From assembly GCF_007830065.1 (NCBI RefSeq), contig NZ_VLKK01000002.1:186001-250000 (forward strand): a stretch of 64,000 nt of DNA, read 5' to 3'. Under the pieces are notes generated by a model. That model saw nothing but the letters and a program-made list of their open reading frames with translations, was not told the DNA's origin and did no database searches. Origin of the DNA: Sphingobium wenxiniae (GTDB lineage: Bacteria > Pseudomonadota > Alphaproteobacteria > Sphingomonadales > Sphingomonadaceae). The position numbers were made by a program, and so were the translations under genes. The stretch's first letter is position 1. Each line of letters begins with the position of its first letter. Below are positions 1,055 through 40,052 of this stretch, in pieces.

Positions 1055-1945
1055 ATGACTATGATAGATATTTCCGTGCTCCGCTATGTCGTGACGCTCG
1101 CCCGCTGCAACACCTATGCTGAGGCGGCTGAGGAACTGCGGATTTCGCAGCCATCGCTGACCCGGGCGGTGCAGCAGTTGGAGCGGCATTATGGTGTCCG
1201 CCTGTTCGACCGGGGCCGTAATGGCGCATCGGTGACGGCCGAGGGGCGCAATCTGATCGAAGGAGCGGCCGGGCTGATCGCACACGCCGAAAATCTTGAG
1301 CAGCAATGGGCGAGCATCGCTTCAGGTGTAGCGGGGATCGTCCGTTTCGGGATCGCGCCGATGCCTGCGCGAGCCCTGCTTGCCGACGTGCTCGCCGAGC
1401 GGATGAGGGCCTATCCGGAGGTGCGGAACGAGGTTGCGGTCGGCAATGTCGACCGGCTGGTGCAGCTTCTGACGAGCGGTCGGATCGAGTTCTTCATCGC
1501 CGCCGAAGGACAGATAGAGTCGGCCCCACATCTGTCCAGCCGGCCCCTCGGTGAGTTTCCGGTGGACCTGATCGTCCGGGCGGGCCACCCATTGACGCGA
1601 CCGGATGCAAAGCCGGGTCCCTATCCATTGCTCATGTCGAGCAGGACGGGTCTTGCGCTGGCCGCGGAGATGGCGCGAATGGATGTCGGGCGTCCCCACG
1701 TCATCGACGACTTCAACGTGCTTGTCGAACTGACCTTGGAGAGCGATGCCATACTGCAAACCTCGGCCTACACAGTCGCAAAGGAGTTGCGATCCGGCAC
1801 TCTGACGCGGCTCGATTGGCAGAGCGGCGTCAGCTCGCGCATCATGTTCTATTCCATGGAACGGCGCAGCCTTTCACGCATGGCCGCGACACTCAAAGCG
1901 ATGTTCCAGTCTCGCATCGTTGCTCTGCGCGATCAAGCATCCTAG
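1055..1945 (+). CDS. LysR family transcriptional regulator
   Basis: A 296-residue LysR-type regulator. The winged helix-turn-helix occupies roughly residues 5-65, with the typical segment AEELRISQPSLTRAVQQLE and the FDR step that follows it. The remainder is the periplasmic-binding-protein-like effector domain (about 95-290), and the length is normal for the family. Such proteins usually activate a divergent gene on binding a small effector and repress their own gene. The divergent target here would be the fatty acid hydroxylase gene. The ATG at 1055 is followed by a second ATG at 1061, so the exact start is uncertain. The effector is unknown. Confidence 0.9.
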   Translation: MTMIDISVLRYVVTLARCNTYAEAAEELRISQPSLTRAVQQLERHYGVRLFDRGRNGASVTAEGRNLIEGAAGLIAHAENLEQQWASIASGVAGIVRFGIAPMPARALLADVLAERMRAYPEVRNEVAVGNVDRLVQLLTSGRIEFFIAAEGQIESAPHLSSRPLGEFPVDLIVRAGHPLTRPDAKPGPYPLLMSSRTGLALAAEMARMDVGRPHVIDDFNVLVELTLESDAILQTSAYTVAKELRSGTLTRLDWQSGVSSRIMFYSMERRSLSRMAATLKAMFQSRIVALRDQAS

Positions 1946-2543
1946 AGCAGTATCCGATCATTCCGGTTCATATCCCGCAGCGGTGAAGGGGCCGGCGCGT
2001 GCACGCCCTCGTGAGGTCACTCGCGTCGTCCGGCTCGTCTTTCTCGATCCCGCCATCGCCAGCGCGGATTGTCGACGGAAAGATGCCCCCGCACATCGAC
2101 ACCAACGGCTGATGCAAACAGACGCCATTGCGTTAAGCTGAACCGAGCAACCTATACTTCTCGGGATATCGCAACGGCGTTAATCGCGATGAGACACCGG
2201 GGCGGTCCTTGGCGGCACCCAGCCCGCCTCCATCAGCGCCGCGTCTTACGCACCGCTGGAACGAGCAAATCGCCGTGTTAGGGATGTGATCGATCTCAGC
2301 CCGTCACGATACCAGCGGCGCTTCGGTGTCGCTTTGCGTTGCAGGGCCAATAAAAAGCGGCCGTGCTGCCATGTCACTCCCTACCGTCAAAATGGGCGAC
2401 AGAGAAAAGGCCGTCGGAGCGGCCAAATGTTGCTCCAGATACGCTCTCTGCAGACCGGACCATTTCCACAAACGGCGCGGAACTGCGCCACTTTCCGAGA
2501 TATTTTCCTTTTATATCAATTACTTAGAAGATAATGGCGGTGG
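1946..2543. other. non-coding stretch, possible left border of an island
   Basis: About 600 bp with no supportable gene on either strand; the short frames here lack family features and ribosome sites. GC falls toward 2.50 kb, where an AT-rich run (about 2500-2535) includes GATAAT at 2530-2535 that could be a -10 box for the operon starting at 2655. This is the junction between ordinary chromosomal genes and the defence-like operon. I found no repeat here matching the tRNA-Ser end near 39.96 kb. Confidence 0.4.
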
Positions 2544-2630
2544 GAGAGAGCTTGCGGACGAACTCTCTCGTCGAAGCCCTGAGCAAGCCTTCGTTTCCAG
2601 TCGTTGCATCGATGGCTAAATTAGCTAAAT
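2544..2630 (+). promoter_or_regulatory. candidate operator/leader of the Phd-led operon
   Basis: Two signals lie just before the Phd-like gene. GAGAGAG (2544-2550) and CTCTCTC (2563-2569) form a 7-bp inverted repeat. GCTAAAT occurs twice, at 2615-2621 and 2624-2630, with a TTAGCTAA palindrome between the copies. Phd/YefM antitoxins autoregulate by binding short palindromes near their promoter, so the second element is a plausible operator. The repeats are seen directly; their function is inferred. Confidence 0.35.
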
Positions 2631-2654
2631 CTCTCCGAAGGGCGGGAGATTCGT

Positions 2655-2828
2655 ATGCGCACCTTTACGGCTGCAGAGGCAAAGAACAAATTCGGTGAAA
2701 TGGTTGATCAGGCGCGATCCGCGCCGGTCGCCATTACCAAGTACGATCGGCCTGTGTTGGTCGTCATGGCGTTCGAGGAATTCGAGCGGTTGCAGGCTCT
2801 CGACAGTGCCCCCCGGAGCTCCAAATGA
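2655..2828 (+). CDS. Phd/YefM-type antitoxin-like protein (no toxin partner)
   Basis: A 57-residue protein too short for most gene callers. It matches the N-terminal Phd/YefM pattern: TAAEAKNKFGEMVDQAR followed by a PVAITKYDRPVLVVM strand, the DNA-binding half of these antitoxins. The long C-terminal tail that neutralises a toxin is almost absent. A GGGAG ribosome site lies 6-7 nt before the ATG. No toxin gene follows; instead its stop overlaps the start of a DNA methyltransferase gene (ATGA). It may therefore act as the transcriptional regulator of the operon, although a remnant of a toxin-antitoxin pair is also possible. Confidence 0.8.
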   Translation: MRTFTAAEAKNKFGEMVDQARSAPVAITKYDRPVLVVMAFEEFERLQALDSAPRSSK

Positions 2829-5581
2829 ATCCCGTAGAGATCGAAGAAGCCGTATCCAACCTTGCGCTCGAGCCCTTTGACCAGGCCGAGTTTCCTTTCC
2901 AGTTCCTGCGGGCCTTCGGACAAAAGGATACCGCGCTGACGAGGCTGCGGGCGGGTAACACCAACCAGTCCGATGTGCCGGGAGCAATTCTCCAGCGTGG
3001 GAACATCCATATCGCCGCCTGCGATCCCGGCAGGGTGGACGAAACTCTGAAGGCTCTGCGCGAAAGCCCCAAGACCACATCGCAGAAGGCCAAGTTCATC
3101 CTTGCCACTGATGGCGAGGCCTTCCAGGCCGAGGACATGAACGGCGGCGGCACCGTGGCCTGCGCCTATTCCGAGTTTCCCGACCACTTCGGCTTCTTCC
3201 TGCCGCTCGCCGGGATCACCACGGTCGAGCAGATCCGGGAAAGCTCGTTCGACATCAAAGCCACTGGGCGGCTCAACAAGCTCTATGTCGAGCTGCTGAA
3301 GGACAACCCGGACTGGGCCCGCCGCTCGGCAGACATGAACCACTTCATGGCGCGGCTGATCTTTTGCTTCTTTGCCGAGGATACCGACATCTTCCTGGGT
3401 GAAGGGCTGTTCAGCAAAACGATCGAGCAGATGAGCGCGCGGGATTCGTCCGACACGCACATAGTGATGGCCGAGATATTTCGGGCGATGGACACCAAGC
3501 CCGAGACCCGCGAGGCGGCTAGCATCAAGCCGTATGCCCGAAAGTTTCCCTATGTGAACGGGCAGCTGTTTTCAGGCAGCACGGAGTGCCCGCGCTTCAC
3601 TAAGATCGCCCGGTCCTACCTGCTGCACATCAGCAGCCTCAACTGGAAAAAGATCAACCCAGACATCTTCGGTTCGATGATCCAGGCCGTGGCGGACGAT
3701 GAAGAGCGCGGCGCGCTCGGCATGCACTACACCTCCGTACCCAACATCCTGAAGGTGCTGAACCCGCTGTTCCTGGACGATCTGCGCGAAAAGCTGGAAG
3801 AGGCGGGGGACAATGGCCGCAAGCTGCTGAACCTTCGCAATCGGATGGCGAAGATCCGGGTGTTCGATCCGGCCTGCGGATCAGGCAACTTCCTGGTCAT
3901 CGCCTACAAGGAAATGCGGGCGATTGAGGCAGAGATAAACAAGCGGCGTGGCGAGCCTGATCGGCGCAGCGACATTCCGCTCACCAACTTTCGCGGCATC
4001 GAACTGCGGGATTTTCCGGCCGAAATTGCACGGCTGGCATTAATCATCGCCGAATACCAATGCGACGTGCTCTATCGCGGCCAACAAGAGGCGCTGGCGG
4101 AGTTCCTGCCGCTCGACAGCCAGAACTGGATCACCTGCGGCAATGCGCTGCGGCTGGACTGGCTGAGCATCTGCCCGCCGACCGGGACTGGGGTGAAGGT
4201 GCAGGCCAACGACCTGTTCGAGACGCCACTGGATCAGGCCGAGATCGATTTCGAGAACGAAGGTGGCGAGACGTACATCTGTGGCAACCCGCCTTATCTT
4301 GGCTCTACGTGGCAGGATGCCGAGCAAAAATCTGATCTTGAGCGCATTTTCGGTCACCGTACCAAGAGTTGGAAGTCGCTCGATTATGTGGCTGGTTGGT
4401 TCATGAAGGCGGCGGATTACGGGCTGCAAACTCGGACCGTAGCGGCCTTCGTGTCAACCAACTCCATCTGTCAGGGGCAACAGGTTCCCATCCTTTGGCC
4501 TCTGGTCTTCTCGGCAGATCACGAGATCGGCTTCGCTCACACCAGCTTCAAGTGGGCCAATCTCGCCAGCAACAAAGCTGGTGTGACAGTTGTGATTGTT
4601 GGCTTGCAACGCAGGCGATCGTCCGCGCCAGTGCTGTTCCAAGAGGCCGACGACGGCTCTACGGTCGCTCGCGAAGTCGACTGCATCAACGCTTACCTCT
4701 GCGCAGCGCCCCGCACGGAAGTGCAACAAGCGCGGGCACCTCTGAATGGGTTGCCCTCGATGGTTCGAGGCAACATGCCCTATGATGGCGGGCATCTTTT
4801 GCTGACCTTGGATGAGGTGGAACGCCTTTCACTTTCGGACGATCAGCGCGCAAGGTTCATCAGGAAGAACTACGGCGGCGCGGAGTTCATACGGGGAATT
4901 GAACGCTACTGCCTCTGGCTTGACGATGTGGACTTGGAAGAAGCACTCTCAAACCCAGCCATTAAAGGGCGGGTTGAGGCTGTCAGAACCATGCGGCTGG
5001 CTAGTCCCGATAAGGGGGCCAACGAAATGGCCAAGCGCGCGCATCAGATGCGTGAAATGAACATTGGCACGAACCACACCATTGTTGCGGCTGCCATATC
5101 TTCGGAGAACCGTCCTTTTCTCCCGTGCGGAGTGATCGACAACCGGACGACCATCAACAATAAGAATTATGCGCTTTATGATGCGCCCCTTTGGACGATG
5201 GCCCTGATAGCTTCACGCTTACACTGGGTCTGGGTCGGCACGGTGTGTGTGCGTCTAGAAATGCGGTTCTCCTACTCGAACACCCTCGGCTGGAACACCT
5301 TCCCGATTCCCACACTGACCGACCAAAACAAGGCAGACCTCACCCGCTGTGCTGAAGATATCCTTCTCGCTCGCGAGGCGCATTTCCCTGCGACGATCGC
5401 CGACCTCTACGATCCGGAGAAGATGCCAGAGGACCTGCGCGCAGCGCATGACCGCAACGACGAGGTGCTGGAGCGCATCTACATCGGCCGGCGGTTCCGC
5501 AACGACACCGAGCGGCTGGAAAAGCTGTTCGAACTCTACACCAAGATGACGGCCAAGAGTGGCAGGGGGAAAGCCGCATGA
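2825..5581 (+). CDS. MmeI-like class I DNA adenine methyltransferase
   Basis: A 918-residue protein with the architecture and length of MmeI-type (type IIL) enzymes: a degenerate N-terminal nuclease region (about 1-120), a helical linker (about 140-330), the methyltransferase core and a C-terminal target-recognition part. The AdoMet motif DPACGSGNF is at 348-356 and the catalytic GNPPY at 487-491, which points to N6-adenine methylation. The D...ExK nuclease signature expected near residues 55-100 of MmeI-type enzymes is not visible: the aligned stretch reads RGNIHIAACD. It probably marks self DNA for the operon, with cleavage left to another protein. It overlaps its neighbours by 4 bp on each side. 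Confidence 0.88.
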   Translation: MNPVEIEEAVSNLALEPFDQAEFPFQFLRAFGQKDTALTRLRAGNTNQSDVPGAILQRGNIHIAACDPGRVDETLKALRESPKTTSQKAKFILATDGEAFQAEDMNGGGTVACAYSEFPDHFGFFLPLAGITTVEQIRESSFDIKATGRLNKLYVELLKDNPDWARRSADMNHFMARLIFCFFAEDTDIFLGEGLFSKTIEQMSARDSSDTHIVMAEIFRAMDTKPETREAASIKPYARKFPYVNGQLFSGSTECPRFTKIARSYLLHISSLNWKKINPDIFGSMIQAVADDEERGALGMHYTSVPNILKVLNPLFLDDLREKLEEAGDNGRKLLNLRNRMAKIRVFDPACGSGNFLVIAYKEMRAIEAEINKRRGEPDRRSDIPLTNFRGIELRDFPAEIARLALIIAEYQCDVLYRGQQEALAEFLPLDSQNWITCGNALRLDWLSICPPTGTGVKVQANDLFETPLDQAEIDFENEGGETYICGNPPYLGSTWQDAEQKSDLERIFGHRTKSWKSLDYVAGWFMKAADYGLQTRTVAAFVSTNSICQGQQVPILWPLVFSADHEIGFAHTSFKWANLASNKAGVTVVIVGLQRRRSSAPVLFQEADDGSTVAREVDCINAYLCAAPRTEVQQARAPLNGLPSMVRGNMPYDGGHLLLTLDEVERLSLSDDQRARFIRKNYGGAEFIRGIERYCLWLDDVDLEEALSNPAIKGRVEAVRTMRLASPDKGANEMAKRAHQMREMNIGTNHTIVAAAISSENRPFLPCGVIDNRTTINNKNYALYDAPLWTMALIASRLHWVWVGTVCVRLEMRFSYSNTLGWNTFPIPTLTDQNKADLTRCAEDILLAREAHFPATIADLYDPEKMPEDLRAAHDRNDEVLERIYIGRRFRNDTERLEKLFELYTKMTAKSGRGKAA

Positions 5582-7650
5582 CAACTAGCAAGCCCATTCC
5601 TGCCGTCAGCTTCCAGACGGCGCGTACCGGCGTTTCCGCCAAAGCCAACGCTCTCGGCATGCGCCCGATGCAGGAACGCGCCTATAACAAGCGTGGCGAG
5701 CAGTATCTGCTGATCAAGTCGCCCCCGGCCTCGGGCAAATCCCGCGCGCTCATGTTCATCGCGCTCGACAAGCTGGCCAATCAGAGCCTGAAACAGGCCA
5801 TCATCGTCGTCCCGGAAAAGTCGATCGGCGGCAGCTTTGCCGATGAACCGCTCAGCCAATACGGCTTCTGGGCAGACTGGGTGGTGAAGCCGCAATGGAA
5901 CCTGTGCAATGCGCCGGGGCTGGACGAGGAAAGGGTCGACCCGTCCAAAGTCAAAGCCGTGGGCCAGTTCCTAGGCAGCGATGACAAGGTGCTCGTTTGC
6001 ACCCATGCCACCTTCCGCTTTGCCGTCGATGCGCTGGGCGTTGAGGCCTTCGACGACCGGCTGATCGCGGTCGATGAATTTCACCACGTTTCCGCCAGCC
6101 CGGACAACCGCCTGGGCGCGCAGCTCGCCGCATTTATCGCGCGCGACAGGGCCCACATCGTCGCAATGACCGGTAGCTACTTCCGGGGTGATGCCGCTCC
6201 GGTTCTAACGCCAGAGGACGAGGGCAAGTTCGAGACTGTCACCTACACCTATTACGAGCAGCTCAACGGGTACGATCACCTGAAGGCGCTCAACATCGGC
6301 TATTTCTTTTATACCGGCCGCTATCTCGAGGCGATCGAGCACTGCCTCGATCCCAGCCGCAAGACGATCGTTCACATTCCGTCGGTCAATGCGCGCGAGA
6401 GCACGAAGGACAAGGTGACCGAGGTCAACGAGATCCTCCACTATCTCGGCAAGTGGACCGGGGCTGATCCGGTAACAGGTTTCGAGCTGGTCGCGCAGCC
6501 CGATGGCCGGGTGCTGAAAATCGCAGACCTGGTAGATGACAGCGATCCAGCCCGCCGTGCCCGCGTGCTGGCGGCGCTGAAAGATCCGGCGCACAAGAAC
6601 GACCGCGATCATGTCGACATCATCATTGCGCTGGGGATGGCCAAGGAAGGGTTCGACTGGATCTGGTGCGAACATGCGCTGACGGTTGGTTATCGTTCCA
6701 GCCTGACCGAGATCATCCAGATCATCGGCCGCGCCACCCGCGATGCACCGGGCAAGGAGGTCGCCACCTTCACCAACCTGATCGCCGAGCCAGATGCGTC
6801 GGAAGCCGCAGTGGCGGATGCAATCAACGATACGCTGAAGGCGATCGCCGCCAGCTTGCTGATGGAACAGGTGCTGGCACCACGTTTCACCTTTACCCCC
6901 AAAAACAAGGGGCCGCTGCCGGACTTCGACTATGGCCCGGAAGGCTATCAGGAAGGCAAGACCAACGTCGGCGTCCGGGAAGGAACCGGGCAACTCCACT
7001 TCGAGATCGGCGGCCTAGTCGAGCCCAAGAGCCCCGAGGCCAGCCGGATCGTGCAGGAAGACCTGAATGAGGTGATTGCCGCCTTTGTCCAGACCAAGGC
7101 CGTTGCCGAGCGCGGCATGTTCGACGAAGAAACCCCGCCGCAAGAACTGACCCAAGTGGCCATGGGTAAGATCGTCCGCGATCGGTATCCCGAGCTTTCC
7201 GCCGAGGATCAGGAATCGGTGCGCCAACACGCGATAGCAGCGCTGAACCTCACCCAGAAAGCCAAGGGGCTCGTGATGGCGGCGGCTGCCGATGAGGATG
7301 GCGAAATCCGCGCCAACACGGCCTTACTGGATGGGGTGCGCCAGTTCGCAATGGATGTACGCGAGCTCGACATCGACCTCATCGATAGCATCAACCCATG
7401 GCAGGCCGCCTATACCGTTTTGGCCAAGGCCATGGACGAAAACACCCTCAAACAGGTGCAGGCTGCGATTGCTGCCAAGCGGACCAAGATCACGCCCGAG
7501 GAGGCCAAGGAACTGGCCGGGCGCGCGGTTCGCTTCAAGAAAGAACGGGGACGCCTGCCTTCAATAACCTCCACCGATGCCTGGGAGCAGCGGCTGGCCG
7601 AAGGCGCTGCCGCGTTCATGCGCTACAAGGAGGAAGGCCGCTATGAGTGA
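5578..7650 (+). CDS. DEAD/DEAH-type superfamily 2 helicase
   Basis: A 690-residue SF2 translocase or helicase. Walker A is SPPASGKS (about 48-55), motif II is DEFH (166-169), motif III is MTGSY (about 197-201), and motif VI is IIGRATRDAPG (about 382-392). After the two RecA domains comes a 270-residue C-terminal part of unknown fold. That part ends with GRLPS...D.WEQRLAEG, a pattern that recurs near the N-terminus of the next protein. It starts inside the methyltransferase stop (ATGA) and its end overlaps the next gene by 8 bp, so the genes are translationally coupled. It is likely the ATP-driven motor of the system. Confidence 0.9.
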   Translation: MTTSKPIPAVSFQTARTGVSAKANALGMRPMQERAYNKRGEQYLLIKSPPASGKSRALMFIALDKLANQSLKQAIIVVPEKSIGGSFADEPLSQYGFWADWVVKPQWNLCNAPGLDEERVDPSKVKAVGQFLGSDDKVLVCTHATFRFAVDALGVEAFDDRLIAVDEFHHVSASPDNRLGAQLAAFIARDRAHIVAMTGSYFRGDAAPVLTPEDEGKFETVTYTYYEQLNGYDHLKALNIGYFFYTGRYLEAIEHCLDPSRKTIVHIPSVNARESTKDKVTEVNEILHYLGKWTGADPVTGFELVAQPDGRVLKIADLVDDSDPARRARVLAALKDPAHKNDRDHVDIIIALGMAKEGFDWIWCEHALTVGYRSSLTEIIQIIGRATRDAPGKEVATFTNLIAEPDASEAAVADAINDTLKAIAASLLMEQVLAPRFTFTPKNKGPLPDFDYGPEGYQEGKTNVGVREGTGQLHFEIGGLVEPKSPEASRIVQEDLNEVIAAFVQTKAVAERGMFDEETPPQELTQVAMGKIVRDRYPELSAEDQESVRQHAIAALNLTQKAKGLVMAAAADEDGEIRANTALLDGVRQFAMDVRELDIDLIDSINPWQAAYTVLAKAMDENTLKQVQAAIAAKRTKITPEEAKELAGRAVRFKKERGRLPSITSTDAWEQRLAEGAAAFMRYKEEGRYE

Positions 7651-8833
7651 CCTCGACCTTGATGAATTGGCTGGCGAACTCGCGGACTTCGCGCCGGCGA
7701 AGAAAAAGCAGGCCACCTATACCCCGCGCGAAGAGCGGATCATCGCCGGGTTCGAGGATATCGAACGCTTCTATGAAGAGCATGGGCGTCTGCCCGTGCA
7801 TGGCGAGGATCGGGATATTTTCGAACGGCTTTATGCCGTGCGGCTGGACCGGCTGCGCGAACTGGAAGAATGCCGGACCTTGCTGACGTCGTTCGACAAG
7901 CATGGCTTGCTCGATCGGGTTGAAGCGGCTGGCCCCGAGGCAGAAGAGCTCGATCCCGATGACCTGATGGCTGAACTGGCTGGTCTTGGCGAAGGCGATG
8001 ACATCACCCATCTCCGCCATGTCAGGTCGGCCGAAGAAAAGCGGGCAGCGGAGGAGATCGCCCGGCGCGACAAGTGCGTCGATTTCGCGAAGTTCGAGCC
8101 ACTGTTCAAGCAAGTGAAGGACGAACTCGCGAACGGCACTCGCGTAACCCGTCCATTCGAACTGAAGGCCGAAATCCGCCCTGGCGCTTACTTCATTGTC
8201 TTCGGCCAAATTTGCTATGTTGCCGAAATGGGCGAGATTTTCACCAACCCTCAAGGCCGGACCGATGCGCGTTTGCGGGTGATCTTCGACAATGGCACCG
8301 AAAGCGGGATGCTGATGCGGTCCCTCCAGCGCCAGCTCAACGAAGATGATGCGGGCCGCAGGGTTACAGACCCGTCACCAGGGCCCTTGTTTGCGGACAA
8401 GGCGGAAGACGGGGAGACCGAGACCGGGACGATCTATGTCCTGCGCAGCAAGTCCGATCATCCAGTCGTCGCCGAACACCGCGCGGTCATGCACAAGATC
8501 GGCGTAACGAGCGGCGCAGTTGAAACCCGCATTGCTGCCGCGGAGAAGAGCTCGACCTACCTGCTGGCAGGGGTTGAAGTGGCCGCGACCTACAAAGTCT
8601 ACGGCGTGAACTGCCAGAAGCTGGAGAACCTGCTGCACAAGGTGTTTTCTGCGGCCCAGATCAACCTGTCGATTCCCGATCGGTTCGGGCACATGGTCAA
8701 ACCGCGTGAGTGGTTCCTCGTGCCCCTGAACGTTATCGACGATGCCGTGAAAAGGATCCGGGACAGGTCGATTCTTGAATATCGATACGATCCACAAAGC
8801 GCCTCGCTGGTTCGCCACGGAGAGGCAGAATGA
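7643..8833 (+). CDS. GIY-YIG nuclease family protein (T5orf172-like)
   Basis: A 396-residue protein whose C-terminal half carries a T5orf172/MUG113-type GIY-YIG nuclease: GTIYVL near 262-267, HKIGVTS near 284-290, then R in VETRIAAAEKSS and E in KLENLLHKVF as the expected catalytic Arg and Glu. The N-terminal half is acidic and helical; residues 37-70 contain GRLP...D..ERL, like the end of the upstream helicase. The start at 7643 follows an AGGAAGG ribosome site and is preferred over a frame extension to 7577. It is the most likely DNA-cleaving subunit of the operon, because the methyltransferase seems to lack nuclease residues. Confidence 0.85.
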   Translation: MSDLDLDELAGELADFAPAKKKQATYTPREERIIAGFEDIERFYEEHGRLPVHGEDRDIFERLYAVRLDRLRELEECRTLLTSFDKHGLLDRVEAAGPEAEELDPDDLMAELAGLGEGDDITHLRHVRSAEEKRAAEEIARRDKCVDFAKFEPLFKQVKDELANGTRVTRPFELKAEIRPGAYFIVFGQICYVAEMGEIFTNPQGRTDARLRVIFDNGTESGMLMRSLQRQLNEDDAGRRVTDPSPGPLFADKAEDGETETGTIYVLRSKSDHPVVAEHRAVMHKIGVTSGAVETRIAAAEKSSTYLLAGVEVAATYKVYGVNCQKLENLLHKVFSAAQINLSIPDRFGHMVKPREWFLVPLNVIDDAVKRIRDRSILEYRYDPQSASLVRHGEAE

Positions 8834-9549
8834 CCGAAGCGCGGATTTACAACGTCTACTGCGACGAGAGCTGTCATCTCGAACACGACGGCGTGCCTGT
8901 GATGGCCTGGGGTGCAGTCTATTGCCCCACAGATGCGATCCGCGCAGTCACCGACAACATCCGAGCACTAAAGTCTGCCTATGGCATGGCCTCGTCCTTC
9001 GAGGCAAAATGGACGAAGGTCTCACCCGCCAAGAAAGACTTCTATCTGGCGCTCATCGACCTTTTCCTTGCCGATGATCGACTCCGATTTCGTGGTCTGG
9101 TGGTCCCTGACAAGGGGCTATTGGATCATGCGCGCTTCGACCAGTCCCATGATGACTGGTATTACAAAATGTATTTCACCATGCTCAGCAAGATTTTTTG
9201 TGCGCCGCATCGGTATCGCATTTATCTCGACGTGAAGGATACGCGCGGTGGGCCAAAGACCCGCAAGTTGCACGATGTGCTGGCCAACAGCCTCTACGAC
9301 TTCAGCCGGGAGTCCATTGAACGCGTGCAGCAGGTGCGCAGCCATGAAAGCGAACTGCTACAGCTGGCCGACCTACTGATCGGGGCGCTCACCTATGCCA
9401 ACCGTGGCCTTGCGAGTAGTCCAGCGAAAACTGCGATTATTGCCCGACTCCAGGAGGCCCTTGGGCCGGATGCTCTGACTCGCACATCCACCTTCGCTGC
9501 CACCAAGTTCAACATCCTGCACTGGCGTCCGCGGGAGACGGCTGGATGA
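8830..9549 (+). CDS. DUF3800 domain-containing protein
   Basis: A 239-residue protein matching DUF3800. An acidic YCDES motif sits on the first strand (residues 10-14), a RIYLDVKDTR strand lies in the middle, and the C-terminal conserved LQLADLLIGAL follows. DUF3800 is generally viewed as an RNase H-like fold with carboxylates in place, and it turns up often beside defence genes and in mobile DNA; its reaction is not established. It overlaps the GIY-YIG gene by 4 bp (ATGA). Within this operon it could be a second nuclease or a processing factor. Confidence 0.85.
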   Translation: MTEARIYNVYCDESCHLEHDGVPVMAWGAVYCPTDAIRAVTDNIRALKSAYGMASSFEAKWTKVSPAKKDFYLALIDLFLADDRLRFRGLVVPDKGLLDHARFDQSHDDWYYKMYFTMLSKIFCAPHRYRIYLDVKDTRGGPKTRKLHDVLANSLYDFSRESIERVQQVRSHESELLQLADLLIGALTYANRGLASSPAKTAIIARLQEALGPDALTRTSTFAATKFNILHWRPRETAG

Positions 9550-10097
9550 CGCCACCCGATTTGATCCCGTTCACCGCTTTTGGCGGCGATTGGGCACGCT
9601 ATGAGAACGAACTCTACAACGTCTTTATCAATGAGATCGCGCGCGGCGGTCTCACGTTTCGGGATGCTCGGGTTACTTGCCGTCGATCGCCAGAAACTGC
9701 GGGGCGATGGGCCGCTTTCTGGCACCTGGTGCAAGAAGGACGCGTGGAGGACGATCGCACACCGGACCTTCGGCGTTGCGAACGTATCCGCTGGGTGCGC
9801 TGGATGATTGAAAATGCGCCGAGCCACGACGAAATCGACGAATGGCAAAATACTCGCGGTACCGTGGTCAACACGCTACTATGGTATCGTGAGGAATATC
9901 TGGTGGTTTTGGCGCAGCGCCAGGATCACTGGCTATTGCTTACGGCCTACTGCACTGAGAAGAGCGGCCGGATCAGGCAGCTTCGAAAGGAGCGCGATGC
10001 CTTTCGTCGGGTCAATCTGCCGTATGCTCTAAAACGGCTGAAGCCGCCCAAGCTAGCCCGGGCGGCCTCGAATGCTCCTCCTACGCATGGCAGGTGA
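9546..10097 (+). CDS. unrecognised protein, last gene of the defence-like operon
   Basis: A 183-residue soluble basic protein overlapping the DUF3800 gene by 4 bp. I do not recognise it with confidence. It has a central RRCERIRWVRWMIENAP segment, then LVVLAQRQDHWLLLTAYC, and a Lys/Arg-rich C-terminus. That order (FWH..., R..RI.W..., VVL..R..., LLTAY) is reminiscent of small RelE/Barnase-EndoU-like nuclease domains found in phages, but no catalytic set can be assigned. Its coupling to the upstream gene makes it part of the same functional unit. It ends 79 bp before the convergent lysis genes of the prophage-like element. Confidence 0.7.
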   Translation: MTPPDLIPFTAFGGDWARYENELYNVFINEIARGGLTFRDARVTCRRSPETAGRWAAFWHLVQEGRVEDDRTPDLRRCERIRWVRWMIENAPSHDEIDEWQNTRGTVVNTLLWYREEYLVVLAQRQDHWLLLTAYCTEKSGRIRQLRKERDAFRRVNLPYALKRLKPPKLARAASNAPPTHGR

Positions 10098-10175
10098 GAC
10101 AACCGCTAGATCGAACTTTTCGGCTCCGATGTCAAGAAAATCCGAAATCGGCTCCGTTGCAGGGTCAGTTTGAGA

Positions 10176-10370
10176 TCACCCAATCCGCGCCTTTGCCGTC
10201 TTCCGAAATACCACGCTGCCGATGCCGGTCAGCGCCAGCACGACGGTCAGGACGTCGGCCTGGGTCAGCCCTTCGGGCAGAATGCCGAGCGCAGCGGCCA
10301 CGCCCCACAGGCTGCCGATTACACCGGTCCAGATGGCCTTGGATGCCCACCAGGGCTTCAGTTCTTCCAT
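10176..10370 (-). CDS. small phage membrane protein, holin-like
   Basis: A 64-residue protein with two predicted membrane segments (about 14-31 and 40-56) and a short basic C-terminus (KTAKAR). It lies directly downstream of the endolysin gene, the normal place for a holin or holin accessory protein in compact phage lysis modules. No catalytic motif is present. Its 3' end faces the 3' end of the defence operon. The holin role is inferred from size, topology and position. Confidence 0.65.
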   Translation of the reverse strand: MEELKPWWASKAIWTGVIGSLWGVAAALGILPEGLTQADVLTVVLALTGIGSVVFRKTAKARIG

Positions 10371-10435
10371 GTCATTTCTCCACAAAAGAGCCCGCGAAAG
10401 TCGCGGGCGGACGGGTTGTTGATGGTAGTGGCCGG

Positions 10436-10972
10436 TCAGGCCTCGTTGGTGGACAGGACGCCGCTGGCCGCCAGCTGAACCGGCTTCGCGCTCGCAGGTG
10501 CCTTGCGGTAGGCCGGCCGACGGATAGCAATGCAGCGGTCCCGCGCGATCCGGGTGATGGTCACACCGTCGGACTGATTGCCGCCCAGCACGTGGAACGC
10601 GCCGTAGTCCTCGCCAACATAGAGCCCGACATGGCCGGATCCCTGCGCGCGGCGGAATACCAGAACGTCGCCCAGCTGGGCCCGGTCGGCGGCCTTCCCG
10701 AACTTCGCCCAGTTGCGCGCCCAGAGCGGGCCTTCCACCACTGGCCTGCCCGCACGCTTGGCAACGACTGCCATGAACAGGCCGCACCAGGGGATGGCAT
10801 CGTCGTTGTAGACTCTGGCGAGGCCAGTCTCCTTGGCCCATCCGAGGATCACGGGATTGTCGGCGGGCCCGGCCACCTCGAAGGTGCCGTAGAGCTTGCG
10901 GGCCTCATCCAGCATCCTCGGCAGCGGGCACAGGTCATCGATCCAGCCATAGGCCGGTGGCAGCGGTTTCAT
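10436..10972 (-). CDS. phage endolysin-like peptidase, TIGR02594/CHAP type
   Basis: A 178-residue cysteine peptidase-like protein of the TIGR02594 family, used by many alphaproteobacterial phages to degrade peptidoglycan. The probable nucleophile lies in PWCGLFMAVVAKRAG (about residues 61-75), and the partner histidine in SGHVGLYVGED (about 112-122). No export signal is seen, so it should need a holin, for which small membrane proteins are encoded on both sides. The ATG at 10972 starts 18 bp after the truncated copy of a neighbouring gene end (10990-11058). Confidence 0.85.
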   Translation of the reverse strand: MKPLPPAYGWIDDLCPLPRMLDEARKLYGTFEVAGPADNPVILGWAKETGLARVYNDDAIPWCGLFMAVVAKRAGRPVVEGPLWARNWAKFGKAADRAQLGDVLVFRRAQGSGHVGLYVGEDYGAFHVLGGNQSDGVTITRIARDRCIAIRRPAYRKAPASAKPVQLAASGVLSTNEA

Positions 10973-10989
10973 GGATGTCTCCCGGGAAA

Positions 10990-11058
10990 TTAGCGGCCGG
11001 ACAGGCCTTTGACGGTGGCGTAGAGAACTGCGAGCGCGGTCATCGCGTTTGTCAGGCC
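10990..11058 (-). pseudogene. 3'-end fragment of the small membrane-protein gene, second copy
   Basis: Read leftward this encodes GLTNAM followed by TALAVLYATVKGLSGR and a TAA stop. The last 16 residues are identical to the C-terminus of the intact 74-residue protein encoded at 12169-12393. Over the 50-bp matching stretch (10992-11041 against 12171-12220) the DNA differs at five positions, all third codon positions; the stop codon also differs (TAA against TGA). The 5' part of the gene is missing, and the SDR gene lies between the two copies. It is a footprint of the insertion event. Confidence 0.8.
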
Positions 11059-11157
11059 GGGTCTTGGCGGAGCGCGCGCCCTGCTCTAGCGGAACAGGAA
11101 CTGAGCATGACTGGCGGCTCGCATTACACAGAGATGCGCCGCAAGCGGGGGATTACC

Positions 11158-12162
11158 ATGACCGACACCAGCCACCTGCCCACGCTCGTCACCGGCGGTA
11201 GCGGCTTTGTCGGGAGCCACATCGTCCGGCAATTGGCGGCTCAGGGTCGCAAGGTTCGAGTACTGATGCGCAAGACCAGCAACCAGGAGGCGATCAGCGG
11301 ATTGCCGGTCGAGATCGTCTATGGGGACGTTCTCGATCCTGATTCATTGCGTGTTGCGACGAAGGGGTGCGGCACGGTCTTCTACAGCGTGGTCGATCCT
11401 CGTTTCTGGCTTACCGACACGACACCGATCTATCGCAACAACGTCGACGGTTTGGTCAACGCCATGGACGTGGCGCTGGAATGCGGCATCCAGCGCTTCA
11501 TATTCACCAGCACCATGGGGACGCTGGGGATCAACCCCGACGGTCCCGTGACGGAGGATATCCCGTTCAACTGGCTCGACCGCGCTCCTCCCTATATCCG
11601 TGCGCGCCTGGAGGCAGAGAACCGCTTCCTCGCCTATTGCCGGGACAAGGGGCTGCCGGGTGTGGCGATGTGTATTGCCAACACCTACGGACCCGACGAT
11701 TACGGCCCGACTCCACACAACCATGCGCTCTGGGAAGTTGCCAGCGGCAAGATGCCGATCAACTTTGATGTTGGCCAACCCACCGTAGACATACGCGACG
11801 CCGCTCAAGCGGCCCTGCTTGCGGAACGCCATGGCCGGGTGGGCGAGCGCTACATCATCGCCAACGAGTATGTTCGCAACCGCGACTTCTTTACGATGGC
11901 AACCGAGATGTGCGGCAAGAAGCCGCCGCTGTTCCTGCCCTACCGGCTGTCCTATGCACTGGCCTGGGCCATCGAAGGCGTGATGAAGCTGCTGCGCCGC
12001 AAGGACTACCTCGTCAGCACTGACGCCGTGTTTCTGTCGGACGTGTTCGGCGAGCTCGACAGTGCCAAGGCCCGACGCGAACTTGGCTGGAACCCGCGCC
12101 CCCTGCGCGAAACAGTGCGCGATGCGATCGCATGGTTTTCAGAACGGGAAGGCAAGCACTGA
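11158..12162 (+). CDS. NAD(P)-dependent SDR/epimerase family protein, inserted cargo
   Basis: A 334-residue extended short-chain dehydrogenase. The nucleotide-binding motif TGGSGFVGSH is near residues 13-22, GDVLDP near 61-66, and FTSTMG marks the catalytic Ser region (about 118-123). The expected YxxxK reads YIRAR, so the catalytic Lys is replaced by Arg. The closest type is the 3-beta-HSD / dihydroflavonol reductase-like group; the substrate is unknown. It is the only rightward gene in the leftward late arm and splits the lysis module, flanked by two copies of a phage gene end. An alternative ATG at 11107 with AGGA before it would add 17 residues. Confidence 0.88.
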   Translation: MTDTSHLPTLVTGGSGFVGSHIVRQLAAQGRKVRVLMRKTSNQEAISGLPVEIVYGDVLDPDSLRVATKGCGTVFYSVVDPRFWLTDTTPIYRNNVDGLVNAMDVALECGIQRFIFTSTMGTLGINPDGPVTEDIPFNWLDRAPPYIRARLEAENRFLAYCRDKGLPGVAMCIANTYGPDDYGPTPHNHALWEVASGKMPINFDVGQPTVDIRDAAQAALLAERHGRVGERYIIANEYVRNRDFFTMATEMCGKKPPLFLPYRLSYALAWAIEGVMKLLRRKDYLVSTDAVFLSDVFGELDSAKARRELGWNPRPLRETVRDAIAWFSEREGKH

Positions 12163-12168
12163 TCTGCG

Positions 12169-12393
12169 TCAGCGGCCGGACAGGCCTTTAACGGTTGCGT
12201 AAAGGACGGCGAGCGCGGTCGCGAAGGTCGACAGCCATTTGACGAACCGGACCATGCCGGTCGCCGTGTTCCAGGCCTGGAGCAGGTCCTTCAGCTCCTT
12301 GCGGACGGCCTTCAGGTCCTCCTGCATGGCCTCGAGATCCGCTCGGATCAGGGCAATCTCCACGGCGGGATCAAGTTGGGGATTGGGGGCCAT
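12169..12393 (-). CDS. small phage membrane-anchored protein, lysis region
   Basis: A 74-residue protein: an amphipathic, charged N-terminal coil (about 10-40, rich in Glu/Lys/Leu heptads), one membrane segment (about 50-66) and the C-terminus VKGLSGR. Its ATG shares one base with the stop of the upstream gene. The type is common next to endolysin genes and may be a holin, antiholin or spanin-like accessory. The last 16 codons are duplicated at 10990-11041 on the far side of the inserted SDR gene, so it was probably once directly adjacent to the endolysin gene. Confidence 0.65.
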   Translation of the reverse strand: MAPNPQLDPAVEIALIRADLEAMQEDLKAVRKELKDLLQAWNTATGMVRFVKWLSTFATALAVLYATVKGLSGR

Positions 12394-19344: not shown

Positions 19345-19824
19345 ATGCGTCGCGATCCATTCCCTCCATTTTCGACACCAGGGGCCACGACGATTTTCAG
19401 TTTTCTGCTCTTTGCCGCCGCCGCCGCCGCGCCCTCGGGCCAGTCTTTCACTTGCACGCCGACCCGGGTCTGGGACGGCGACGGGCCGATCTGGTGCGCC
19501 GAAGGACCGCGCATCCGCCTGTCCGGCATTGCTGCGCGCGAGATGGATGGCAGCTGCCGGCCGGGACACCCGTGTCCGCGCGCCACAGCCGAAGAAGCCC
19601 GCGATGCGCTGGTCAATCTCATCGGGCGTCCGGTCGGGATGGCCCGCGAGGGGCATATTCTGGTCCAGGGTCCGGCGATGACCTGCCGTTCCGAAGGCAG
19701 CGGCGGCGGCGCGCGGACGGCGGCCTGGTGCGTTTCACCTCGGTCCGGTGATCTGTCCTGCGCAATGGTCAGGGGCGGCTGGGCTCTGCGGTGGGATCGG
19801 TACTGGCGCAATCATCGCTGCTGA
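19345..19824 (+). CDS. thermonuclease (SNase)-like protein
   Basis: A 159-residue SNase-like protein on the strand opposite to the late genes. A hydrophobic Ala-rich segment (about 17-30) resembles a signal peptide or anchor. RVWDGDGPIWCAEGPRIRLSGIAAREMDG (about 41-69) matches the SNase core, with the Asp pair and the GIxAxE-like turn, but the family IDAPE reads IAAREM. It overlaps the convergent methyltransferase gene by 56 bp at the 3' end. It could process nucleic acid outside the cytoplasm. Its activity is uncertain because not all catalytic residues can be aligned by eye. Confidence 0.7.
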   Translation: MRRDPFPPFSTPGATTIFSFLLFAAAAAAPSGQSFTCTPTRVWDGDGPIWCAEGPRIRLSGIAAREMDGSCRPGHPCPRATAEEARDALVNLIGRPVGMAREGHILVQGPAMTCRSEGSGGGARTAAWCVSPRSGDLSCAMVRGGWALRWDRYWRNHRC

Positions 19825-21055
19825 CTATCCCGGCGATTTCATTGAAGGTCCGTTCGTCGGCTTCGAGCGTTGCGGCCTGTCCGGTGAAGTCCTGCCAGCG
19901 CTTGATGATCACGTCGCAGTAGCGCGGATCCAGTTCCATCAGCCGCGCGATGCGGCCGTTCATCTCGGCGGCGATCAGCGTGGTGCCGGACCCGCCGAAG
20001 CTGTCGAGCACGATATCGCCGCCCTTGGTGTTGTTGAGCATCTGGTATTCGAACAGCGCGACCGGTTTCATGGTCGGGTGCTCGCCATTGCGCGAGGGCT
20101 TGTCGAACTTGAGGATGGTCGTCTGCTTGCGGTCGCTGGCCCACAGGTGCCCGGCGCCGTCCTTCCAGCCATAAAGGCAGGGTTCGTGCTGCCAGTGATA
20201 ATCCTGCCGGCCCAGTGCCAGAGATGATTTCTCCCAGATCAGGCATTGGCGGATCTTCCAACCGGCATCGATCGCCGCGCCCCGGAAATTGTAGCCCTCG
20301 CTGTCGGCGTGCCAGATGTAAAACACCGCGCCCGGTTTCATCACCGTGCTGGCCGTGACATAGGCATCGCGCAGGAACTGACGAAACTCGTCGTCAGCCA
20401 TGTTGTCGTTCTGGATGGTCAGCTTGTCCTTGGTGCCGCCCTCATAGGCAACATTGTACGGCGGATCGGTGAGCCACATGTCGACCATCTGACCGGCGGT
20501 CAGCTTTTCCATGTCATCGACACTGGTGCTGTCGCCGCACATCAGCCGGTGCTTGCCCAGCAGCCAGACGTCGCCCGGGCAACTCACCGGAATTTCCGGA
20601 GGGTTGGGAGCCTCGTCGGGATCGGTCTGGCCCTCGGTTTTTACCGCAGTCAGCGCAGCCAGCTCGTCATCGGAAAAGCCGGTGAGCCCCAAATCGAAGT
20701 CGAAGGCCTGCAAATCGGTCAGTTCGACACGAAGCAATTCCGCGTCCCAGCCAGCGTTCAGCGCCAGTTTGTTGTCGGCCAGCACATAGGCCCGCTTCCG
20801 GGCTTCGGTCCAACCTGCCGCGACCATGACCGGGATCTCGGTCAAGCCCAGCTTGCGCGCCGCCAGCACTCGTCCGTGGCCTGCGATCAGGCCGCCATCT
20901 TCATCGACGAGCACCGGCACCGTCCAGCCCCATTCGCGGATGCTGGCGGCGATCTGGGCCACCTGTTCCTCGCTGTGGGTCCGAGCATTGCGGGCATAGG
21001 GCACCAGTGCCGAGACGCTCTTGCGCTCGACCTTGTCTGCCGGCCAATCCATCAT
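19769..21055 (-). CDS. ParB-like domain / DNA adenine methyltransferase fusion
   Basis: A 428-residue protein in two parts. Residues about 10-110 are a ParB/sulfiredoxin domain (ARNARTHSEEQVAQIAASI and GGLIAGHGRVLAARKLG). Residues about 165-400 are a beta-class methyltransferase with LTDPPYN near 194-200 and the AdoMet motif DSFGGSGTTLIAAEM in the C-terminal part. Such fusions are frequent in phages, where they protect virion DNA from host restriction or mark packaging DNA. The gene lies between the HNH and terminase genes of the leftward arm. Confidence 0.9.
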   Translation of the reverse strand: MMDWPADKVERKSVSALVPYARNARTHSEEQVAQIAASIREWGWTVPVLVDEDGGLIAGHGRVLAARKLGLTEIPVMVAAGWTEARKRAYVLADNKLALNAGWDAELLRVELTDLQAFDFDLGLTGFSDDELAALTAVKTEGQTDPDEAPNPPEIPVSCPGDVWLLGKHRLMCGDSTSVDDMEKLTAGQMVDMWLTDPPYNVAYEGGTKDKLTIQNDNMADDEFRQFLRDAYVTASTVMKPGAVFYIWHADSEGYNFRGAAIDAGWKIRQCLIWEKSSLALGRQDYHWQHEPCLYGWKDGAGHLWASDRKQTTILKFDKPSRNGEHPTMKPVALFEYQMLNNTKGGDIVLDSFGGSGTTLIAAEMNGRIARLMELDPRYCDVIIKRWQDFTGQAATLEADERTFNEIAGIVSSDDCASTDPTAEPSRP

Positions 21056-26313: not shown

Positions 26314-26637
26314 GGCCGGCCATCCCGGTCAGGACCACCAGCGTTAGGGTGGGCAAATGATTCGCTGCTGCGACGGCTCCGACCACCAGAATGGTCGGGT
26401 CTGTGGAGCGATTTATGTGGATAGCCAGTTGATAGCTGGCGACCCGGGATCGGACACGTAGTCCGCTAAAAATCCTCAGAAAACGGTGCATTTGACAGGA
26501 CTCCAGATGGTCCTGTCACTTACCGGCGCGCCCTTTGGACTGTCGGGAGAACAGAAAAGGAACTTACCCCCTTGGCAAGTGCATCACGGGCGATAAATTT
26601 GTTGGTGACGCCATCCCCCAAACAGCCCGGAGCCTAC
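26314..26637. promoter_or_regulatory. divergent early control region with a perfect dyad
   Basis: The 324-bp gap between the leftward replication arm and the rightward two-gene cassette. It contains a perfect dyad with 9-bp arms, TGACAGGAC (26493-26501) and GTCCTGTCA (26510-26518), separated by 8 bp. A smaller one has arms GCCAG (26424-26428) and CTGGC (26436-26440). Divergent phage early promoters are usually controlled by a repressor bound to such dyads, yet no CI-like repressor gene was recognised. A short membrane-like frame at 26306-26491 on the minus strand is not convincing. Confidence 0.5.
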
Positions 26638-27786
26638 ATGCCGACATTCAATCCTCGTCTATTCACCAAAGCCGATCGCCTGAAGAACATCTCGGCCGCC
26701 AACCTTGTGGCTCTATTCAGTCCGTGGTCCGAGTATCTAGCCGGGCGCGGTGTCGAACTGATCGACGACGAGGATGAGTTTCCGTTCGACCGGCTGAGCA
26801 GCGTGTTGATGACGCCGACCGACGAAACCCCGACCGAACTGGTCGATGCGCTCTATTTCATCCACGAATCCGCTAGCGATCTGCGGATCGAGGACCTGCT
26901 CAATATGGCGCGGACAAACGGGCTCGATCTGGCGCACAGCGACGACGCGACACCGGCCGACGTGGCTGTGCAAATCTGGCTCCTGCGTCCGGATCTGCTT
27001 CGTGATTCCCATAACCGTGCCGTTGTCTTCAATCAGAAGAAGTTCGAATATTTCAGCGGACGCACGGCAGAACCGCAGCCGTTCCCCGAGGTGTCAGAGG
27101 GCCAGACTCTCGAAATCCAGGCCACTTTCGACGAATGGTTCTCCAGCAAGCGCAAAGGGCGAGGCACGCGGTTCCTGACCTTTCGCCGCGATCATCGGGT
27201 CTGGATGCTCGTCCGCCACGGTCTTCCTATGCGGCGGGAAGGCAAACATCAGGATAGCGGCGAAACCGCGACCGAACTCTATCGCCCCCAGCAGCATGAC
27301 GTTCTGGTCTACGATGAAAATAGTGGTGAGATCGGGGTCCACACTTCGACCAAGGGTGAGACGGATCTTTACCTGCATACTCTGGGGTTTGTCCTCTTCA
27401 ACGACCCGGACCATTTCGGGAAAGGCGCCAAATACAACTTCGACCCGCTCCTCAATCATGGTCCCGATGCTCTTGCCTGTGACGATATCGAGGGGATCGA
27501 TCGCGTTGTTCTGGTCGAAGTGCAGAAATATTGGGGCGGGTTTGCCGAACGGGAAATTCGCAAGGCTGATGACATTTTTGCCGCTTTCGCCGACAAATGG
27601 CCTGAACGGCTGCGGAGCGGAAAGATCACGAGCGTCGGTTTCAAGGTACGGTTTGCCAATTCGTCGAAGGACAGGTCGGTCACGATCCGGTTGCCCAACA
27701 TTGCCCGTTACGACCGGGACGATGATAGCGATCTGATCGAACAGTGGCTTGCTGCTCGTGGATTCTGCTCGGCAGGAGATGAATGA
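26638..27786 (+). CDS. unknown protein A of a two-gene cassette
   Basis: A 382-residue soluble acidic protein with no family I recognise. Visible are an N-terminal helical part (about 1-110), RGTRFLTFRRDHRVWMLVRHG near 163-183, and a C-terminal half with HDVLVYDENSGEIGVHTSTKGE and VLVEVQKYWG. GGAG lies 8 nt before the chosen ATG. Its stop overlaps the start of the next gene (ATGA), so the two are co-translated. Base use resembles the defence operon rather than the structural genes. Position beside the early control region suits an accessory (moron) function such as immunity or defence; this is inference. Confidence 0.7.
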   Translation: MPTFNPRLFTKADRLKNISAANLVALFSPWSEYLAGRGVELIDDEDEFPFDRLSSVLMTPTDETPTELVDALYFIHESASDLRIEDLLNMARTNGLDLAHSDDATPADVAVQIWLLRPDLLRDSHNRAVVFNQKKFEYFSGRTAEPQPFPEVSEGQTLEIQATFDEWFSSKRKGRGTRFLTFRRDHRVWMLVRHGLPMRREGKHQDSGETATELYRPQQHDVLVYDENSGEIGVHTSTKGETDLYLHTLGFVLFNDPDHFGKGAKYNFDPLLNHGPDALACDDIEGIDRVVLVEVQKYWGGFAEREIRKADDIFAAFADKWPERLRSGKITSVGFKVRFANSSKDRSVTIRLPNIARYDRDDDSDLIEQWLAARGFCSAGDE

Positions 27787-28889
27787 TCACGGTGCGGAAA
27801 CTAACCAACTTCTGGGAAACGCTCGACATGCTGACGGATATGGGCATGCCCGCCATCAGCTGGCGTGGTGGTCATCCCGGCGAATGGGAGGTTGTAAGGC
27901 CGCTACTGGTCAACACAGGCCGACGTGCAGCCTCGGTTGATTGTCCGTCCGGTGCCGGAGAATTTTGCCCCCGCAAGGTCATCGAATTGTCCGGTGGCCG
28001 GATGATCGCGGAATGCCAGGATATCCCGGCGGTCTGCGATACCCTTGAGGTTACGCTCGCGGACATCCAAATGCAGCGTGTCGATCGCGCGAAATTTGCC
28101 GCGATGATCTGCGATACGCTGAACCTCACGCCTGCGCAGCAAAAGCCGCTTCCAGGGGGGCTGTTTGCGATCGGCAGCCGCGGCGTCGTGGCGGGCCGCA
28201 GCGTCACCGTGTTCGGCCTTTTCCAAGGTGGTAGTCAGCCAGAAAGGGGGCTGGCGGTATTCGATCTGCTGCAGGAAGTGGCTCAACCACAGCTGCTTCT
28301 GGTGCCGACAGCGCACACCCTGTCCGAGGACCAGAAACGACATCTGGCCCGCATCGGCACCGAGTATCGGGCCCTCGATGATGCTCTCTTGGCGGACGAT
28401 GCCCACAATGTTTGTGCGGCTGCCGTTGTAACGGATCTGCTGGCCAAGATGGAGAACGCCATCAGCCAGTCTTTGCAAAGCCCTGCCTCTGAATTGCTCT
28501 GGCAGCTGCCCCCCGATGCTACATGGCCCAAGATGAAGATCGTTTTTCAGTCTGACGAAGTGATCAACATAACCTACGGTGGCGATACGAAACGATTTGA
28601 ACCCGCCCAGCTGGGCATGACGAAAGCCAATAGCGGCAAGCCCACCAATCAATGGGTGATGCTAAAGGCCATCGCGATCGGGCGCGGGACAATCCCTTTT
28701 CCCTCCGAGGCAAAACTGCAGAAACAAAAGCAGGCGCTCTCCAAAAAGCTGATCGCAGCATTCGGCATCAAGGATGACCCGATTGAGGTCAGAGACGGTT
28801 CCTACGTCGCGCTTTACGTCACGAACGCCGATGGCCTGAAGCAGGGACGTCAAGGCGCACACCAACGAAATTTCGTTGACGACGACTGA
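27783..28889 (+). CDS. unknown protein B of a two-gene cassette
   Basis: A 368-residue protein with no assignable function. The N-terminal 110 residues contain repeated Cys (VDCPSGAGEFCPRKVIEL, AECQDIPAVCDTL), a possible zinc-binding module. The middle has LLLVPTAHTLSEDQKRHL. The last third, beginning KMKIVFQSDEVINITYGG and ending before the acidic tail FVDDD, has a basic KQKQALSKKL helix. It is coupled to gene A by a 4-bp overlap and followed by a strong terminator at 28920, so the pair is an independent transcription unit. Confidence 0.7.
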   Translation: MITVRKLTNFWETLDMLTDMGMPAISWRGGHPGEWEVVRPLLVNTGRRAASVDCPSGAGEFCPRKVIELSGGRMIAECQDIPAVCDTLEVTLADIQMQRVDRAKFAAMICDTLNLTPAQQKPLPGGLFAIGSRGVVAGRSVTVFGLFQGGSQPERGLAVFDLLQEVAQPQLLLVPTAHTLSEDQKRHLARIGTEYRALDDALLADDAHNVCAAAVVTDLLAKMENAISQSLQSPASELLWQLPPDATWPKMKIVFQSDEVINITYGGDTKRFEPAQLGMTKANSGKPTNQWVMLKAIAIGRGTIPFPSEAKLQKQKQALSKKLIAAFGIKDDPIEVRDGSYVALYVTNADGLKQGRQGAHQRNFVDDD

Positions 28890-39961: not shown

Positions 39962-40052
39962 TGGCGGAGCGGGAGGGATTCGAACCCTCGATACGCTTTT
40001 GACGTATACTCACTTTCCAGGCGAGCGCCTTCGACCACTCGGCCACCGCTCC
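39962..40052 (-). tRNA. tRNA-Ser, anticodon GGA
   Basis: Read on the minus strand, a 91-nt class II tRNA. The acceptor pairs GGAGCGG with CCGCTCC, then discriminator G and an encoded CCA. The anticodon loop TGGAAA gives GGA, the long variable arm is GTATACGTCAAAAGCGTAT, and the T loop is GGTTCGAATC. It marks the edge of the core chromosome. Its 3' end points toward the accessory region, a common insertion target, but no partner repeat was found. Confidence 0.96.

Follow-up and report, generated by a model that had tools for sequence, protein, structure and literature searches.

An overlap of reading frames raises the question of whether the genes so joined form one system. In a 64,000-nucleotide stretch of Sphingobium wenxiniae DNA (the window), six genes overlap in succession, and a sequence-only reading had taken them for a single, undescribed DNA-modification defence system. 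The six open reading frames (ORFs) and their overlaps of 4, 4, 8, 4 and 4 bp were reproduced (Table 1), and each gene has relatives with open frames. The overlap of the phd and methyltransferase genes is also present in two other loci (L007 and L057), and that of the helicase and nuclease genes is also annotated in four plasmid copies. Pfam searches of the six proteins gave Phd_YefM; the MmeI N, spacer, MTase, target recognition domain (TRD) and C families; DEAD/ResIII; T5orf172 (GIY-YIG); and DUF3800. Comparisons across genomes showed that the overlapping genes belong to two separate units that have been fused, a methylase-helicase-nuclease set and a pair resembling rlfA and rlfB of phage P1. 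The operon is probably a two-module fusion of a mobile restriction cassette (2604 to about 8796) with the rlfAB pair (from 8829).

Genes 2-4 form a conserved triad. The six window proteins were compared by tblastn (E 1e-5) with 48 stretches anchored on the helicase, which comprise 19 stretches from family genomes, the second triad copy carried by this genome, four plasmids and 24 viral contigs. The set is redundant in part (L054 and L073 are alike, as are L050 and L051), and a few stretches are cut by contig ends or broken. A whole or partial methyltransferase gene lies upstream on the same strand in 41 of the 48; six have no room for it, and the one without it is the broken remnant L049. The nuclease gene, whole or in part, lies downstream of the helicase gene in 46, with room lacking in one and the gene absent from another. 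Neither the DUF3800 protein nor the 183-residue protein was found in any of the 48 stretches. Thus, the expected joint travel of the gene set across genomes holds for genes 2-4 and fails for genes 5-6. At E 1e-50 the helicase was detected in 17 of the 149 genomes from the family and 23 of the 398 from the phylum, both counts including the present genome, and in 184 plasmid records, 151 of them covering at least 80% of the query; the phage collection gave two partial matches. Triads on Vibrio and Ligilactobacillus plasmids keep the same order at 29-45% identity, and the Bacilli plasmid L139 carries all three proteins at 29-43%.

The gap between the methyltransferase and helicase genes is below 100 bp in 18 of the 41 stretches and 242-5576 bp in the other 23. 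Genes within the gap, named for part of the wide-gap stretches, include zeta-toxin-like (L034), DUF1016/YhcG nuclease or PADLOC PDC-S02 (L036), GmrSD_N (L037) and SLFN_AlbA_2 (L001) genes, together with small pairs that resemble toxin-antitoxin genes by reading alone. The gap proteins of L035, L041, L042 and L046 (327-406 residues) appear by reading to be one family with a GIY-YIG-like end; Pfam gave no match for that of L035, and PADLOC none for those of L035 and L041.

A second phd-methyltransferase-helicase-nuclease copy lies in the same genome (L007, G000:C22:28000-45750, at 4968-11140), without genes 5-6. It adjoins a CBASS cyclase and phospholipase (patatin) pair and a helix-turn-helix (HTH)-peptidase gene that is RmrA-like in PADLOC. 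DNA homology between the window and this copy covers 2604-4590 and 5211-8796 of the window. A genuine, novel defence system of six genes, with RlfA and RlfB as constitutive parts of the restriction machine, would fit the overlap at all five junctions and the recurrence of rlfAB in Type I systems, next to genes for a methyltransferase, a specificity subunit or HsdR. However, the absence of the pair from all triad stretches and from the second copy makes such a system very unlikely, as do the restriction of the window RlfB to one of 149 family genomes, which is this genome itself, and a Sphingopyxis genome that has the pair and no helicase match.

The fusion of the two units can be located on the DNA. 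The TGA stop codon of the nuclease gene overlaps the ATG of rlfA, and homology to a contig of Sphingopyxis sp. LK2115 (L074) extends over 8829-11041, covering rlfAB and the lysis end of a prophage. The helicase profile found no match in the LK2115 genome, an empty answer that is weak alone. Because homology to the second copy and to LK2115 splits at this point and the helicase was not found in LK2115, the overlap at 8830-8833 joins two histories. In the LK2115 contig (1-165), whose match to the window begins at base 161, the rlfA start also overlaps the stop of an upstream frame by 4 bp; this stretch is unlike the window GIY-YIG gene, and the contig ends there. The prophage-like element that the sequence-only reading placed beside the operon is supported. 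Its attachment sites were not found: the direct repeats gave no convincing pair, and of 40 other genomes of the genus, 11 matched the left flank in part (71% over 759 bp at best), in no case across the two flank genes together. The right flank as query yielded only fragments, which were set aside. The defence position beside a tRNA gene, also claimed, is not shown, because the sole tRNA found by ARAGORN in the window (Ser, 39962-40052) is 30 kb distant.

Genes 5-6 are a unit apart from the triad. PADLOC matches the DUF3800 protein to PDC-M04A (293 bits) and the 183-residue protein to PDC-M04B (195 bits), adjacent to one another as the PDC-M04 definition has them; the label PDC presumably stands for 'phage defence candidate'. 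The two proteins are 46% (RlfA) and 41% (RlfB) identical to those of P1, where records describe rlfA and rlfB as possibly associated with lytic replication. No Pfam family was found for the 183-residue protein or for the eight RlfB members tested, and the predicted RlfB fold weakly resembles RelE/colicin-D-type RNases (BECR: RelE, HigB, YafQ, colicin D/E5). The DUF3800 gene adjoins rlfB in all 30 other loci fetched: 10 loci from the phylum, covering all but one (G346) of its 11 other genomes with PDC-M04B matches, LK2115, P1 (two records), the Bifidobacterium phage Bbif-1, a Rhizobium plasmid and 15 viral contigs. Seven of the ten phylum loci are weak matches invisible to tblastn with the window protein, and the Rhizobium plasmid was found through its DUF3800 protein. 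With this genome included, PDC-M04B matches occur in 12 of 398 phylum genomes. Viral contigs L104-L113 show identity at the level of P1, and viral contig L101 shares a 9265-bp segment with the window at 100% identity.

The neighbours of the pair vary. Among the ten phylum loci, Type I hsd genes are close by in five (L087, L088, L089, L090 and L092), a DrmMI/IIG-like methyltransferase is near the pair in L091, and seven queries found no restriction genes near it in L093-L096. In the near-identical viral contigs L102 and L103, rlfAB lies between hsdS and hsdR, and no hsd match was found near it in L074, L099, L100, L114 and L115. The pair could be mere prophage cargo, serving replication or superinfection exclusion, with its overlap on the nuclease gene an accident of the join. 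The recurrence of the pair with the prophage lysis end in LK2115, its place at the start of viral contig L101, its carriage by P1 and Bbif-1 and the position of the P1 pair behind the operator of the phage repressor C1 all agree with such cargo. However, a pure replication role does not account for the copies of the pair that lie within or next to Type I restriction genes. P1-like plasmids differ in the rlf region or have lost it (PMC9603915, PMC6906374), and a CRISPR interference screen scored both P1 genes as non-essential (PMC10695390). Prophage cargo is a genuine possibility, although less likely than not.

The methyltransferase shares the spacer, methyltransferase, TRD and C-terminal domains of MmeI; a profile of its family scores 590 bits against 5hr4, and PADLOC scores the protein as Type IIG with 940 bits. 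MmeI requires D70, E80 and K82 (PMC4833311). No [DE]xK occurs in residues 1-115 of the window protein; it occurs somewhere in that region in 8 of 34 family rows and starts at 45-75 in two, both divergent (L048 and L070). A phmmer search with the N-terminal 170 residues did not retrieve MmeI. Membership in Type IIL/IIG, in which one chain both methylates and cleaves through PD-(D/E)XK, was rejected on this ground. Over the 34 proteins, the TRD has a mean pairwise identity of 40% vs. 64-77% for the N, spacer, MTase-N and C parts, and residues 485-628 have 49.5%. Between the two copies of this genome, the TRDs are 45% alike and residues 324-628 are 78% alike, with 88-99% elsewhere. The TRD is the most variable part of the methyltransferase and is swapped between the two copies.

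In the helicase, the motifs GKS, DEFHH and QIIGRATRD are invariant in a six-row alignment, and the DEAD/ResIII matches are weak, below the curated cut-offs. A pseudomurein-binding repeat (PMBR) match just under the cut-off was dismissed as spurious. PADLOC scores the helicase and the nuclease only weakly. The structure model of the nuclease has a predicted template modelling score (pTM) of 0.41, and its reading was therefore confined to single domains; its matches are dominated by a middle SH3/tudor-like part at about 166-244. A sequence search of solved structures gave no convincing match for the helicase, the DUF3800 protein or RlfB. Decay of the restriction system, with the methyltransferase kept as an orphan for gene regulation as proposed for Bacillus subtilis DnmA, would agree with the lack of anti-phage or restriction activity of the B. 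subtilis homologue in published tests (PMC9973331, PMC7261158). It is unlikely here, since neither copy has a broken frame among the three genes, the aligned rows show no change in the motifs of helicase and nuclease, and the differing TRDs of the two copies are consistent with selection for new specificities. Methylation-based defence, as the sequence-only reading had it, is the likeliest reading for the core, which is most likely a Type I-like restriction system.

The first gene encodes a Phd-type protein that is found in two of the 48 helicase-anchored loci, L007 and L057. Since the next gene downstream in the window and in both of these loci is a methyltransferase gene and not a toxin gene, a Phd/YefM toxin-antitoxin module was rejected. 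Autorepression is typical of the Phd/YefM family, and the segment in front of the gene probably serves as its operator. It holds an inverted repeat, GCTAA-A-TTAGC (2615-2625), and the palindrome TTAGCTAA (2621-2628). The motif ATGGCTAA[A/C]TTAGCTAA is kept in all three loci, with differing bases upstream; the presumed operator varies by one A/C difference in L057 and one A/G difference in L007. Over 1940-11000, neither promoter-like counts (1 vs. 2.0) nor terminator-like counts (12 vs. 8.3, s.d. 3.2) were clearly above shuffles. Other triads have different small upstream genes. A VapC-like gene is annotated in L001, where its partner is FitA-like, and L059 has one by reading; L031 and L034 have an HTH antitoxin-like gene. 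As side observations, TAGCTA is present within the operator core and is also the site of RptR, a restriction regulator described in a paper whose accessible text does not mention Phd/YefM (PMC12255303), and no link to RptR is claimed; in L102/L103 (1707-1850), a Phd-like frame (52% identical to the window Phd over 48 residues) lies just upstream of hsdM in the Type I operon that carries rlfAB.

Table 1. Features of the fused operon in window coordinates.
Feature	Position	Strand	Support
Presumed operator ATGGCTAAATTAGCTAAATCTC	2612..2633	+	near-unchanged in the three loci with this phd gene
Phd/YefM-type antitoxin-like protein, 57 aa, without adjacent toxin gene, presumed autorepressor	2655..2828	+	Pfam PF02604, 48 bits
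MmeI-like (DnmA-type) adenine-type DNA methyltransferase with TRD, 918 aa, without PD-(D/E)XK motif	2825..5581	+	
SF2 helicase (YeeB-type), 690 aa	5578..7650	+	weak Pfam DEAD/ResIII, motif alignment
GIY-YIG (T5orf172, YeeC-type) nuclease, 396 aa	7643..8833	+	
Seam between restriction cassette and phage-side rlfAB module	8797..8828	+	L007 homology ends at 8796, L074 homology starts at 8829
RlfA-like DUF3800 protein (PDC-M04A), 239 aa	8830..9549	+	Pfam, PADLOC; D12, E13, E58, D134, D181 invariant in 10 of 10 rows
RlfB-like protein (PDC-M04B, phrog_16230), 183 aa, predicted RelE/colicin-D-like fold	9546..10097	+	

A mechanism can be proposed for the fused operon. The Phd-type protein would bind the palindrome before its own gene and restrain the operon, and the methyltransferase would read an asymmetric site through its TRD and protect host DNA by adenine methylation. 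Since the methyltransferase has no nuclease motif of its own, the superfamily 2 (SF2) helicase and the GIY-YIG nuclease are proposed to act with it, as HsdR does with HsdMS, translocating along and cutting unmethylated DNA. The rlfAB pair may have been attached through the end of the neighbouring prophage. The RNase H-like DUF3800 protein and the protein of predicted BECR-type ribonuclease fold could then supply a second, RNA-directed layer, which would act when restriction is overwhelmed or blocked. More broadly, and with considerable doubt, RlfA-RlfB may be a restriction-embedded RNase module, carried by relatives of phage P1 and also within or next to restriction operons of several unrelated kinds (Type I, DnmA-YeeB-YeeC). 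Such a module would kill or stall an infected cell in which restriction is blocked, as an independent parallel to guarding of the PrrC type.

Within the prophage, two 50-bp direct repeats that are 90% alike flank an epimerase-like gene (about 11042-12170; 10992-12220 with the repeats), and the phage sequence of the LK2115 contig is continuous at the corresponding place. A ParB-like/DNA methyltransferase protein of the prophage is encoded at 19769-21055 (phrog_498, 590 bits). Two adjacent + strand ORFs of 404 and 368 aa lie at a GC dip at 26572-28889, with no Pfam or PHROGs match at E 0.001.

Comparison with known systems separates what is known from what is new. The PADLOC comparison bears out that the six proteins fully match neither BREX, DISARM nor Type ISP. 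The BREX set has PglZ, BrxC and further Brx proteins with PglX; among the PADLOC matches listed (25 of the 33 weak rows for the methyltransferase), only weak local PglX-like matches to the methyltransferase were found, and none to the other five proteins. DISARM combines DrmA, DrmB and DrmC with a methyltransferase, and only DrmMI matches, again to the methyltransferase, were seen. Type ISP enzymes hold nuclease, helicase, methyltransferase and TRD in a single polypeptide, whereas the window has these functions on separate genes. Against Type I (HsdM, HsdS, HsdR), none of the six proteins has a specificity- or restriction-subunit match among the PADLOC matches listed, and the helicase and nuclease are separate genes. 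MmeI has the nuclease motif in its own chain, whereas any cutting here would have to be done by the helicase and the GIY-YIG protein.

By gene content and order, the triad is the published DnmA-YeeB-YeeC arrangement and is already known, and genes 5-6 match the PADLOC pair PDC-M04A/B, so that 'undescribed', like 'single system', falls away from the sequence-only reading; its defence role remains the likeliest reading for the core. MmeI homologues without a nuclease motif, flanked by yeeB- and yeeC-like genes, were noted with citation of Morgan 2009, and a Type I-like system was suggested for the cluster, which left transformation unaffected in B. subtilis (PMC7261158). DnmA homologues have a helicase family at downstream position 1 and a T5orf172/GIY-YIG family at position 2; the B. 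subtilis cluster gave no phage protection, and deletion of the dnmA or yeeB homologue made Vibrio crassostreae more sensitive to some phages (Piel et al., via PMC9973331). The window has the same nuclease-motif-less MmeI-like methyltransferase, followed on the same strand by the SF2 helicase and the T5orf172/GIY-YIG gene, and in both cases defence genes are nearby. B. subtilis was among the control genomes with PF20473 and PF10544 profile matches. Relatives often have foreign genes between methyltransferase and helicase. In contrast to the published arrangement, the Phd-type regulator and presumed operator stand in front here, rlfAB is fused behind, and the genome has two copies. The core is a natural experiment for a type of restriction system first suggested in 2009 (cited in PMC7261158), since this one genome has two near-identical copies that differ in the recognition domain.

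What is new is the rlfAB fusion, the identity of the pair and the possible restriction-embedded RNase layer. The literature search found no paper on MmeI with GIY-YIG, helicase and DUF3800 and none on PDC-M04, and a connection of P1 rlfAB and PDC-M04 with restriction operons is new as far as the literature was searched. The two P1 genes, labelled only as possibly associated with lytic replication, gain a testable role from the repeated presence of the pair among restriction genes and from the predicted resemblance of RlfB to RelE/colicin-D-type RNases. As in PDC-M04 and P1, the DUF3800 gene is followed immediately by rlfB. However, a frame overlap joins the pair here to a GIY-YIG restriction gene, whereas elsewhere it lies behind repL or among hsd genes. 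PrrC is a nuclease embedded in a Type I restriction operon, and the window resembles such operons in having an extra RNase-like gene inside or behind a restriction operon. It differs in that the genes encode a DUF3800 protein and a protein of predicted BECR-like fold, for which guarding is only proposed.

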